Shown: piece after piece, positions 10,810 to 63,112 of the stretch
Layout: the number at the start of each line of letters is the position of its first letter
Position numbering within the stretch: position 1 is the first letter of the stretch
Source: Streptococcus mitis
GTDB taxonomy: Bacteria; Bacillota; Bacilli; Lactobacillales; Streptococcaceae
NCBI RefSeq assembly: GCF_016658865.1
Contig: NZ_CP067992.1
Coordinates: 949,001-1,013,000, forward strand
Direction of reading: 5' to 3'
Length of the DNA stretch: 64,000 bases
Made by a program: the position numbers and the translations under genes
Notes under the pieces: model-generated
Seen by the model: the letters and a program-made list of their open reading frames with translations, nothing else
Told to the model about the DNA's origin: nothing
Database searches by the model: none

Positions 10810-10839
10810 GCTTTTAGTATAGCATAAAGCAGGCTATTG

Positions 10840-10848
10840 TGCTATACT
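10840..10848 (+). promoter_or_regulatory. Extended -10 promoter of queT
   Basis: TGCTATACT is an extended -10 box 22 nt upstream of the riboswitch aptamer. No good -35 box is visible. Confidence 0.55.
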
Positions 10849-10870
10849 AGTAAGGTTGATTGAACCAACC

Positions 10871-10928
10871 CTTGGTGCTTAGCTTCTTTCACCAAGCATA
10901 TTAAACGCGAGTAATCGCCAAAGGAGAA
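10871..10928 (+). promoter_or_regulatory. Class II preQ1 riboswitch (COG4708 RNA)
   Basis: The 58-nt sequence has the P2 hairpin CTTGGTG...CACCAAG, the conserved AGCTTCTTT loop, the short GCGAGTAATCGC hairpin and CGCCAAAGGAG at its end. It agrees closely with the pneumococcal preQ1-II aptamer as I remember it. The Shine-Dalgarno AAAGGAG is part of the fold, so preQ1 binding would close the ribosome binding site of queT, a translational off-switch. Confidence 0.93.
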
Positions 10929-10931
10929 CAA

Positions 10932-11441
10932 ATGAAAAAATTAACTATTCGTGATGTAGCAGACATTGCAATTGTTGCTGCTATCTATGTCGTTTTAACT
11001 GTAACACCGCCCCTAAATGCTATTAGCTATGGTGCTTATCAGTTCCGTATTTCAGAAATGATGAACTTTATGGCTTTTTACAATCCTAAGTACATCATCG
11101 GAGTTACTATTGGTTGTATGATTGCTAATTTCTTTAGCTTTGGATTGCTAGATGTCTTTGTTGGTGGTGGATCAACCTTGGTCTTCCTCAGTCTAGGTGT
11201 TTGGCTTTTTGCAAAATACAGCAAAGACTACCTCTTTAATGGATTAATTCGAAAAGATCATTTCTTCTTTTCAATCCTCTTTTCAATTTCCATGTTTACC
11301 ATCGCCGCAGAGTTGAATATTGTAGCAGAATTACCATTTTTCCTTACTTGGTTTACAACAGGAATTGGTGAATTTGCCTCATTAATTATTGGAGCGATTA
11401 TTATCGGTAAAATTGGTCGTCGAATTGATTTAAGCAAATAG
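10932..11441 (+). CDS. queT: QueT family preQ1/queuosine-precursor transporter subunit
   Basis: Substrate-specific (S) component of an ECF-type transporter for queuosine precursors. The 169 residues give about five or six membrane helices. The family signature TVTPPLNAISYGAYQFRISE lies near the N-terminus, and INFFSFGLLDVFVGGGSTL-like text (ANFFSFGLLDVFVGGG) is in the middle. The preQ1-II riboswitch immediately upstream makes the substrate assignment firm. ECF energising subunits would be encoded elsewhere. Confidence 0.93.
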   Translation: MKKLTIRDVADIAIVAAIYVVLTVTPPLNAISYGAYQFRISEMMNFMAFYNPKYIIGVTIGCMIANFFSFGLLDVFVGGGSTLVFLSLGVWLFAKYSKDYLFNGLIRKDHFFFSILFSISMFTIAAELNIVAELPFFLTWFTTGIGEFASLIIGAIIIGKIGRRIDLSK

Positions 11442-11540: not shown

Positions 11541-11613
11541 GCTGATTTAGCTCAGTTGGCAGAGCGCATCCATGGTAAGGATGAGGTCGCCGGTTCAATC
11601 CCGGCAATTAGCA
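11541..11613 (+). tRNA. tRNA-Thr (anticodon GGU)
   Basis: A 73-nt cloverleaf: acceptor GCTGATT pairs with AATTAGC (one G-T), the D-arm contains AGCTCAGTTGGCAGAGC, and the anticodon stem CATCC/GGATG holds the loop ATGGTAA. The anticodon GGT (GGU) reads ACC/ACU threonine codons. The T-arm is CCGGTTCAATCCCGG and the discriminator base is A. CCA is not encoded. Confidence 0.95.
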
Positions 11614-11749: not shown

Positions 11750-11899
11750 GACGCGATGAGTCGATAGGTAGTCTTCGGACTACTATTGAGCATAAGGAGG
11801 TCATAACGCAGGAGCGGACCTTGATGAGTTGTGTGAACCTGCTCATCACATGAAGATGCCTCTTAGTCCCTAGTTTAGCGACTGGGGATTTTTATTTTC
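11750..11899 (+). ncRNA. asd RNA
   Basis: Structured RNA of the type described upstream of asd in lactic acid bacteria and detected as a separate transcript in Streptococcus pyogenes. Visible elements are a GTAGTC/GACTAC stem closed by TTCG near the 5' end, conserved CATAAGGAGGTCATAACGC, a TGATGAG/CTCATCA stem, and a 10-bp terminator stem (11865-11874 with 11881-11890) followed by T residues. A promoter-like TTGACA (11717-11722) with TATAAT (11743-11748, 20 bp) or TAATAT (11740-11745, 17 bp) precedes it. asd has its own promoter after the terminator, so this RNA is probably independent rather than a leader. Its function is unknown. Confidence 0.85.
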
Positions 11900-60568: not shown

Positions 60569-61612
60569 TTAAATCAACATTGAGATTGGGTTTTCAATCA
60601 ACTCTTTCAAGTCCTTCATAAACTTAGCACCAGCCATACCATCTACGACACGGTGGTCAATGGTTAATCCTAGGCTCATGATAGGGCGAATCACAATTTC
60701 ACCATTGACGACAACTGGCTTTTCAATTGTCGAACTGACACCAAGGATAGCTGAGTTTGGTTGGTTGATGATAGGACCAAAGGACTGAACGCCAAACATT
60801 CCCAAATTACTGATTGTGAAGGTTGAATTTTGCAGTTCGCTTGGAGCTAATTTACCATCCAAGGTACGGCCAATAACATCTTTGAAGGCTACAACCAGTT
60901 CTGAAAGACTCATCTTCTCAGCATTGTAAACAACAGGTGTCATCAATCCATTATCCATCCCAACTGCCATGGCAAGATTGACATAGTTGTGAGTGATAAT
61001 GGTCTTGCCATCTTCTGTCAATGAAGCGTTGATATAAGGGTGTTTCATAAGAGTCTTAACAACAGCAAGTGAAAGAAGGTCTGTTACAGTAGTCTTCTTC
61101 CCAGTTGCTTCCATGATTGGCTCAAGAACCTTCTTACGAAGAGCCAACATTTCAGTCATATCAACTTCATAGTTGAGGGTGAAGGTTGGCGCAGTTAGGT
61201 AAGATTCAACCATGCGTTGGGCAATAACCTTACGCATTGGTGTCATTGGAATACGCTCAATCTCACCATAAGGAGTGATATTATCAGGAACCTCTTCCAC
61301 TTTTTCAATCTGAGCAGGAGACTTGATGGTGTCGTTTTCGATATTTTCAGGAAGCAAGGCCAAAACATCCTTCTTCATGATTTTACCACGATGACCGGTT
61401 CCTTGAATCTCCTGCCAAGCAATGTTATGTTCGAGGGCAATTCGTTTTGCAAGTGGCGAAATGCGAACCACGTTTGTGTCTTTATAAGTTTCCACGTCTT
61501 CTTTGTGGACACGACCGTTTGCACCTGTGCCAGAAATGTCGTAGAGGTTGATCCCTAAATCATCCGCTAACTTTCTAGCCGCAGGAGTCGCTCTTAGCTT
61601 GTCATCAGCCAT
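60569..61612 (-). CDS. acoC: 2-oxoacid/acetoin dehydrogenase E2 acyltransferase without a lipoyl domain
   Basis: 347 residues from ATG 61612 (MADDKLRATPAARK), preceded by GGAGAGG; an upstream in-frame ATG would read through the repeat region. There is no lipoyl domain. The N-terminus instead has two peripheral-subunit-binding-like segments (RATPAARKLADDLGI...GRVHKEDV and ISPLAKRIALEHNIA...GKIMKKDV). The catalytic domain ends with TIDHRVVDGM (HxxxDG). The lipoyl arm must come from the E3 subunit. Confidence 0.93.
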   Translation of the reverse strand: MADDKLRATPAARKLADDLGINLYDISGTGANGRVHKEDVETYKDTNVVRISPLAKRIALEHNIAWQEIQGTGHRGKIMKKDVLALLPENIENDTIKSPAQIEKVEEVPDNITPYGEIERIPMTPMRKVIAQRMVESYLTAPTFTLNYEVDMTEMLALRKKVLEPIMEATGKKTTVTDLLSLAVVKTLMKHPYINASLTEDGKTIITHNYVNLAMAVGMDNGLMTPVVYNAEKMSLSELVVAFKDVIGRTLDGKLAPSELQNSTFTISNLGMFGVQSFGPIINQPNSAILGVSSTIEKPVVVNGEIVIRPIMSLGLTIDHRVVDGMAGAKFMKDLKELIENPISMLI

Positions 61613-61641
61613 GACCTCTCCAATTCTATTTATGATACAAA

Positions 61642-61728
61642 GGGCGTTAAAAGCGACTGAAAAATAGGAAATCGACGATGGCTTCGATGAAGCCAAGGAG
61701 ATTTATCTTTTTTCCGAGCTTTTAGCCC
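61642..61728 (+). repeat. Covarying hairpin element, unit 1 of 3
   Basis: 87-nt imperfect hairpin. Outer arms GGGC..AAAAGC/GCTTTT..GCCC; A/T-rich segment GAAAAATAGG/ATCTTTTTTC; middle stem AAATC (61669-61673)/GATTT (61700-61704); internal loop GACGAT/AAGGA; inner stem GGCTTC/GAAGCC (61680-61694) with loop GAT. Strand assignment is arbitrary because the element is nearly symmetric. Confidence 0.85.
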
Positions 61729-61750
61729 GTGTTCGAATATAAGATATTAA

Positions 61751-61838
61751 GGACTCAGAGGGCAATGAAAAAATAGGAGATTGACGATGTGTTCGATGAA
61801 CACAAGGAAATCTATCTTTTTTTCGCAGACCTCCGTCC
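61751..61838 (+). repeat. Covarying hairpin element, unit 2 of 3
   Basis: 88 nt. Outer arms GGAC..GAGG/CCTC..GTCC; same A/T segment; middle stem AGATT (61778-61782)/AATCT (61809-61813); internal loop GACGAT/AAGGA; inner stem GTGTTC/GAACAC (61789-61803) with loop GAT. All three stem segments differ from unit 1 with pairing kept. Confidence 0.85.
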
Positions 61839-61860
61839 GAATTCAATTACATGATACTAA

Positions 61861-61950
61861 GGGCGTCAAAAGTCAAAGTGAAAATAGGAAACTTGACGAA
61901 GAAACTTTAGTTTCAAGGAAAGTTTATATTTTTCACACAGACTTTAGCCC
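61861..61950 (+). repeat. Covarying hairpin element, unit 3 of 3
   Basis: 90 nt. Outer arms GGGC..AAAGTC/GACTTT..GCCC; middle stem AAACTT (61889-61894)/AAGTTT (61920-61925); internal loop GACGAA/AAGGA; inner stem GAAAC/GTTTC (61901-61914) with loop TTTA. The period between units is 109-110 nt. Confidence 0.85.
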
Positions 61951-61966
61951 GTGTTCAACTCTACAA

Positions 61967-62026
61967 GCAACTTGGATACAACACGTATCTCAAGTTGCTA
62001 CGGTTGCCGCCATTACGCGGTCAACC
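61967..62026. other. Two further hairpins beside the repeat array
   Basis: GCAACTTGGATAC (61967-61979) pairs with GTATCTCAAGTTGC (61985-61998) with one bulge. GGTTG-CCGC (62002-62010) pairs with GCGG-T-CAACC (62017-62026). Neither has a T tract on the minus strand, so they are probably not terminators of acoB; together with the three units they fill the 507-nt acoC-acoB gap. Confidence 0.6.
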
Positions 62027-62119: not shown

Positions 62120-63112
62120 CTATTCTTTATTATATGTTTTACGGATGGCATCTTTGATGCTTTCAACTGTTGGAATCATTGCATTTTCTAGGTTTTGTGC
62201 ATAAGGCATTGGCACATCTTCTCCTGCACAACGGCGGATTGGTGCATCTAGATAGTCAAATGCTTCCGATTCTGAAATAATAGCTGAAATTTCACCGATA
62301 TAGCCACTTGTCTTGTGGGCATCGTTAACCAGAACAACCTTACCAGTCTTCTTAACTGAGTTAATGATGATGTCCTTATCAAGCGGAACAAGGGTACGTG
62401 GGTCCACAATTTCAACAGAAATTCCTTCTTCTGCTAATTCTTCAGCAGCTTGAACCACACGGCGAAGCATTTTTCCATAAGTAACAACTGTTACATCCGT
62501 ACCTTCACGTTTGATTTCCCCAACTCCAAGTGGAATCGTGTAGTCTGGATCAACTGGCACTTCCCCTTTTTGGTTAAATTCTGACTTGTACTCAAGAATA
62601 ATAACTGGGTTGTTATCACGGATAGAAGACTTGAGCAGTCCTTTCATGTCAGCAGGTGTACCTGGAGCCACAACCTTAAGTCCAGGGATATGAGTGAACC
62701 AAGACTCTAGAGATTGTGAGTGCTGGGCTGCAGAACCAACTCCGTTACCAGCTGCACAACGAACAGTCATTGGAACCTGACCTTTACCACCAAACATATA
62801 GCGTGTTTTAGCAGCTTGGTTGACGATATTGTCCATGGCAATAACCGAGAAGTCCATAAAGGTCATATCGACGATTGGACGAAGGCCTGTCATGGCTGCT
62901 CCTGCTGCTGCTCCCGAGATGGCAGCTTCAGAAATCGGACAGTCACGAACACGTTCTGGACCAAATTCTTCAAGCATTCCAACAGAAGTTCCGAAGTCTC
63001 CTCCGAAGACGCCGACGTCTTCTCCCATCAAGAACACATTTTCATCGCGACGCATTTCCTCAGACATAGCAAGGATAATGGTGTCACGGAAGGACATTGT
63101 TTTTGTTTCCAT
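62120..63112 (-). CDS. acoB: Acetoin/pyruvate dehydrogenase E1 beta subunit
   Basis: 330 residues of the transketolase-like E1 beta family: MGEDVGVFGGDFGTS near the N-terminus with the TPP-activating Glu, GLRPIVDMTFMDF, and the C-terminal domain with VVTYGKMLRRVV and DPRTLVPLD. Pairs with the alpha subunit for TPP-dependent decarboxylation. It begins 15 nt after acoA with AAGGAGAAAG. A 507-nt gap separates it from acoC, unusual inside an operon. Confidence 0.95.
   Translation of the reverse strand: METKTMSFRDTIILAMSEEMRRDENVFLMGEDVGVFGGDFGTSVGMLEEFGPERVRDCPISEAAISGAAAGAAMTGLRPIVDMTFMDFSVIAMDNIVNQAAKTRYMFGGKGQVPMTVRCAAGNGVGSAAQHSQSLESWFTHIPGLKVVAPGTPADMKGLLKSSIRDNNPVIILEYKSEFNQKGEVPVDPDYTIPLGVGEIKREGTDVTVVTYGKMLRRVVQAAEELAEEGISVEIVDPRTLVPLDKDIIINSVKKTGKVVLVNDAHKTSGYIGEISAIISESEAFDYLDAPIRRCAGEDVPMPYAQNLENAMIPTVESIKDAIRKTYNKE

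Follow-up and report, generated by a model that had tools for sequence, protein, structure and literature searches.

The window, by which we mean the whole stretch of 64,000 nt of Streptococcus mitis DNA that was analysed, carries three tandem hairpin units in a gap of the aco operon. A first-pass annotation of the sequence had placed the array between acoB and acoC, which agrees with the match of acoC to NCBIfam NF011416, the name acoB being our assumption from position. The features of the locus are the following:

60569..61612, minus strand: acoC, dihydrolipoamide acetyltransferase (NCBIfam NF011416, 760 bits over 346 aa; ATG taken from the sequence)
61615..61621, minus strand: Shine-Dalgarno GGAGAGG of acoC, read from the sequence, intact and downstream of the array
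61634..61735, plus strand: lineage A hairpin, with GGCTTC/GAAGCC as inner stem (covariance-model match of 100 bits, this unit being a member of the model; fold z -3.92)
61743..61845, plus strand: lineage B hairpin, with GTGTTC/GAACAC as inner stem (model match of 97.5 bits, also a member of the model; fold z -3.54)
61853..61957, plus strand: lineage C hairpin, with GAAAC/GTTTC as inner stem (model match of 103.2 bits, also a member of the model; fold z -4.22)
61967..61998, no strand assigned: a different inverted repeat, GCAACTTGGATAC..GTATCTCAAGTTGC, seen in the sequence on the acoB side of the array
62120..63112, minus strand: open reading frame of the upstream operon gene, presumably acoB

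The unit starts (61634, 61743 and 61853) are spaced by 109 and 110 nt, and the lineage A unit is the array member closest to acoC, giving the order ABC when read from that gene. The position reported earlier (61642-61950) was right, but the full array extends further, over 61634-61957. Each of the three units folds into one long hairpin. Compared to dinucleotide shuffles, the fold energies are lower by 3.5 to 4.2 SD for the plus strand and by 2.4 to 3.1 SD for the minus strand. The claim that the units fold alike, with stems that change in step, was borne out by both folds and letters, and the stems quoted for it are all present in the window, together with the letters GACGAT, GACGAT and GACGAA and AAGGA. 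Rfam returned no family match at the array, and the best match obtained (E 0.4) scored far under its gathering cut-off; elsewhere in the window it assigned a preQ1-II riboswitch (10838-10934), a tRNA (11541-11613) and the MarS (asd) sRNA (11751-11894).

Unit number and order at acoB-acoC in other genomes

The relatives of AcoC belong to mitis-group Streptococcus. A profile of nine copies from the genome under study, run on 80 acoB-acoC loci from other genomes (one of which, L017, ends 362 nt upstream), counted 137 units; the numbers of loci with 0, 1, 2, 3 and 4 units were 9, 24, 31, 13 and 3. Shorter relatives of the unit that are matched by the covariance model R1 described below (e.g. L068, L072, L084) were left out of this count, and a shorter hairpin is still present in two folded loci without a counted unit (L009, L067). 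The length of the gap was within 14 nt of 112, 222, 332, 450 or 560 nt in 56 of the 79 loci measured. All counted units share a single orientation, and the distance from the beginning of the first one to the start codon of acoC is always 21-22 nt. Wherever the spacers were inspected, the Shine-Dalgarno of acoC lies between array and AUG, and thus is not split by the array; with this signal downstream, the aco array represents the unremarkable extreme of an otherwise striking family. The equivalent Shine-Dalgarno in four relatives scored -7.3 to -7.5 kcal/mol against an assumed 16S tail.

When the units were clustered with a cut at 20% distance, lineages A, B and C held 132 of the 137. Neighbouring pairs (n=66 in the 80 loci), read from acoC, were BC (19), AB (16), BA (16), CA (9), BD (2), BE (2), CB (1) and AC (1), and neighbours of the same lineage were found in none of them. 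Some unit junctions create a TATAAT (L010, L011), which would be a candidate promoter element within the array. By eye, a stretch resembling the repeat at 61967-61998 is present on the acoB side in L010, L011, L013 and L020; elsewhere this side is occupied by a different hairpin.

A hairpin family of the genus and its possible relatives

Copies were traced by BLAST and with R1, which was built from the nine copies of the genome under study. With this model 15 copies (E<1e-4) of a unit of about 103 nt were found in this 2.03-Mb genome, nine of which match by construction, being members of the model. The 37 further genomes behind the named Streptococcus loci contain 8-26 copies each (E<=1e-3). 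The covariance model and streptococcal search that the first-pass annotation had proposed revealed dispersed copies throughout the genus, with an R1 match at 1e-6 in 143 of 147 Streptococcus genomes in a search run with stricter filters and at most 27 candidates scored per genome. Order-wide, 41 of 148 genomes were matched; 20 of these belong to the genus, and among the other 21 the best match has an E of 2.7e-12. Five genomes from other families of the order (G192, G206, G184, G207, G310) showed 11 to 23 weaker matches each, with best E of 1e-8 to 3e-12, which possibly represent distinct subfamilies. The array gave no match in plasmids.

Several unusual copies were observed. Three loci (L101, L163, L166) present a variant with an extra side hairpin, GGTTCGGCTTGCCGAAC, which R1 matches in part only. 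Loci of three genomes (L132, L156, L157) show two copies tail to tail between what we take to be rpsN and rpsH. A copy of 157 nt (L179:1926-2082) has its 3' arm broken by about 50 nt.

The first-pass annotation had doubted a match to BOX and named "RUP or another small mobile repeat" as the main alternative. RUP has been described as a hairpin of about 107 bp, mostly intergenic and MITE-like (PMC3049150, PMC2229807). Its descriptions give it a mean GC of 27.5%, a highly conserved sequence, IS630-Spn1 ends and, outside S. pneumoniae, 3 or 9 copies in S. mitis B6 (depending on the paper) and almost none in S. sanguinis. The present family shares the size class, the hairpin and the MITE-like character, and differs from RUP, as described, in mean GC (41%) and median pairwise identity (67%), both over 97 full-length distinct copies, and in its genus-wide range, which includes 15 R1 matches in S. 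sanguinis SK1 (G029). In AT-richness, conservation and host range the units do not fit RUP as described, and the other half of the suggestion, a mobile repeat, was retained. SPRITE, defined by an 18-bp duplex followed by a U-rich tract and by AAAA/TTTT ends, was also rejected, as the units are paired nearly to their GAT..TCA ends and have no terminal U tract.

Ordinary BOX elements are, to judge from the sequence, common in this genome too, a boxA-like motif occurring at 47 places (<=2 mismatches) compared to 0 in a reversed control. The hairpin family resembles BOX (boxA-boxC) as a modular hairpin repeat with paired ends, and a TAGGAA..CGNAG stretch is similar by eye. When R1 was applied, as a one-way test with filters off, to 21 BOX loci of the genome, in-register matches were obtained in seven (9-12 bits, E 0.56-4.7), none of them significant, and pneumococcal BOX (boxA, boxC) was rejected as the earlier doubt implied. 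None of the three known repeats therefore fits the tested features.

Another candidate is the BOX-type repeat family of S. suis (RepSU1), reported as hairpin-forming and composed of several modules, its A and C halves each being some 50 nt long (PMC3049150). Its A1C1 form, with two halves of this length, would fall in the same size class and share the modular, hairpin-forming build, and the in-register BOX matches would fit a remote kinship with BOX; these matches are, as noted, not significant. It is possible, if somewhat doubtful, that the family is this already described repeat, here seen genus-wide. For the S. suis sRNA rss03 (PMC12005413) no relation was seen. We found no description of the hairpin family, or of repeats that split ribosome-binding sites, in the open-access papers searched, and the same holds for its genus-wide reach, settled positions and split sites.

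Pairing in the family was assessed on 108 copies (102 of them distinct) drawn from six genomes; their alignment was made by fitting to the model and is biased in its favour. Double changes are present in 22 of the 27 pairs, 95.8% of the cells pair, and covariation reached 0.556, compared to 0.175 (sd 0.006) after shuffling and at most 0.103 with slid partners. The nine copies of the genome under study alone, aligned with MAFFT, gave a similar picture (0.535, compared to 0.191, sd 0.026, after shuffling). This supports the earlier claim that sequence changes while pairing is kept. Conservation of 90% or higher is found chiefly in the GAT and AAG close to the 5' end, in the AAAATAGG and TCT..TTT of the mid stem, and in the TCA of the 3' end.

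Strong covariation and a conserved mid stem, as well as shared positions (the rpsG junction in five of six genomes, dnaJ in six of six), would suit the proposal of the earlier reader, namely a family of cis-regulatory RNAs that bind a protein or ligand and tune operons, with positions kept because they are useful. The binding site of that proposal, an invariant GACGAW/AAGGA internal loop, did not survive, since both motifs occur together in only 7 of the 102 distinct copies. The nameable host genes share no common pathway, one site can be occupied by different sequence types, and the copy is absent from some genomes; we regard this explanation as unlikely.

Mismatches in the stems were 59 G-U and 35 A-C, leaving out one constant G-U pair (92/100). 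Split by transcription direction, leaving out two ambiguous pairs, the G-U:A-C counts were 10:3 in sense and 15:15 in antisense copies (p=0.18), and these mismatches do not separate constraint at the RNA level from constraint at the DNA level. Their being not far apart is what a strand-blind process would give, such as replication template switching that corrects imperfect palindromes and leaves the arms complementary without selection on structure, but bulges and the constant G-U pair have not been corrected away and a shortened copy at parC (L248) still folds (z -2.7); we regard this explanation too as improbable.

Placement and probable mobility

The copies are positioned with respect to genes by one of their ends. 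With sides that adjoin another copy excluded, 56 of 88 GATAC ends are located at -30..+10 nt of a gene boundary, compared to 5 of 80 of the opposite ends. Two placements are found, after a same-strand stop codon (dnaK, rpsG and also a gene that we presume to be rpsN) or before an opposite-strand start codon.

The preferred reading, a mobile hairpin repeat, can be followed in Streptococcus prophages. Among the 60 of 130 records that were listed, at least 11 have a copy directly upstream of the tape-measure gene, and at least 16 relatives (90.6-93.9% identity) are about 112 nt shorter at this site. Three filled sites, five of the 16 empty ones and one more distant record were aligned. The filled site reads TTTTTGATAGGAAC[copy]TTGATGGAGGG, and the empty one TTTCTAGTAGG in five records and TTTCTGATGG in the distant one. 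An imperfect TTGATAGG/TTGATGG direct repeat flanks the filled site; since the empty sites lack the TTGATGG letters, which the distant record has in part, this short repeat is suggestive rather than proven. The Shine-Dalgarno of the tape-measure site is located downstream of the copy. This pair of filled and empty sites points to mobility on sequence grounds.

No steady target duplication was found at chromosomal sites. Likewise, no transposase or insertion sequence with such ends was found at 30 of the 38 places of the genome under study that carry the end pattern; 22 of these were not already known copies and by eye were coding, rRNA or devoid of a partner end. The units are small and dispersed, with paired ends, and are too short to encode a transposase, hence have none of their own, all of which are features of MITEs. 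A small mobile repeat, which the first-pass annotation had kept as its alternative, is the better reading given the dispersed copies and the filled and empty prophage sites. As many sites are common to several species, movement must be rare now; in this reading the hairpin repeat moved in the past and is mostly settled.

Copies between Shine-Dalgarno and start codon

Thirty-five copies have the start-codon placement within 60 nt. The Shine-Dalgarno is upstream of the copy in 21, downstream in eight (at acoC, dapB and three more genes) and in neither position in six. The 21 belong to six genes, prmA, parC, dnaJ, deoD, carB and one that we take to be pheT, and their AUG follows 4-7 nt after the copy, as in GAAAGGAGT[copy]CTATATG at parC and AAAGGAAC[copy]TTAAATG at dnaJ. 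Their upstream Shine-Dalgarno scores -5.7 to -9.4 kcal/mol; on the downstream side 16 score zero, and the signals of the other five overlap or come after the AUG. A stable structure between Shine-Dalgarno and AUG, with no other Shine-Dalgarno near the AUG, is thus present in these 21 copies at six genes, and not at acoC.

A precedent exists in phage T4, where structure between Shine-Dalgarno and AUG of genes 25 and 38 shortens the effective spacing from 22 to 5 nt and from 27 to 11 nt, as tested by mutation (PMC3014915). The arrangement described here is alike in layout, and differs from T4 in involving a dispersed repeat of about 105 nt at six host genes instead of two phage genes. By eye, removal of the hairpin would leave 5-9 nt between Shine-Dalgarno and AUG in seven of the 21 copies, and the other 14 have 17-24 nt between Shine-Dalgarno and copy, so that bridging there needs a further stem; in predicted folds of these 14, upstream strands can pair with the copy ends. 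In the leaders of L096, L273 and L288 both hairpin ends can pair with a strand that directly follows the Shine-Dalgarno (GATACATTGTTC in the case of carB), which gives a predicted three-way junction, and by eye the letters of this strand track those of the copy.

Of 30 dnaJ loci, 29 carry such a copy, representing three or more sequence types; the remaining locus (L275) is provided with its own Shine-Dalgarno. A further 26 genomes, distant or low in copies, were examined, and the dnaJ start could be located in 21. The Shine-Dalgarno is of the ordinary kind in six of these, including three in which R1 has no match (G041, G042, G179); it is weaker in one and no better than -3.9 in 14. In G055, likewise not matched by R1, a shorter hairpin occupies the same place (z -5.2), and in G048 a weak one (z -0.9). 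At parC a copy end was found in 22 of 30 loci. Of the eight loci without it, one shows a remnant, with GGAG at a distance of 15 nt. The other seven have only a weak Shine-Dalgarno (-2.9), so that a weak signal near the AUG is no proof of bridging. An N-terminal extension through the copy was also considered: of 69 frames, 62 close before they reach the Shine-Dalgarno and seven stay open up to it (nine dnaJ distances of 65 nt in this test are false matches to AGGAG within the hairpin), and translation through the copy seems unlikely from these frames.

The array at acoB-acoC probably belongs to an ancient, MITE-like family of mobile hairpins that seems to be non-autonomous and in which pairing is kept over most of the length; three members of it stand here in tandem. 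From the arrangement and the T4 precedent, the folded hairpin may bring Shine-Dalgarno and AUG close together, and a copy between them would be tolerated only while folded, which would help to hold its pairing. More tentatively, such a hairpin could enter between the Shine-Dalgarno and the start of essential genes without silencing them, being invisible to the ribosome when folded; the genus would then carry many split sites, at which selection for translation keeps the shape as the letters turn over. At acoB-acoC the hairpins would form in the spacer of the mRNA, upstream of the intact acoC Shine-Dalgarno, and matter little for initiation. There the array may grow and shrink by recombination, its units acting as tolerated spacers; any influence on the acoB:acoC ratio or on the stability of the message would, as a guess, be modest at most.

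Should the split sites operate in this way, ribosomes would commonly initiate across a 100-nt hairpin throughout a bacterial genus, and such initiation would no longer be a peculiarity of phages; models of expression would misjudge the genes concerned, and a selfish repeat would have a built-in way of living in dense operons. The acoB-acoC arrays offer a natural series of 0-4 copies for gauging the effect of such hairpins.
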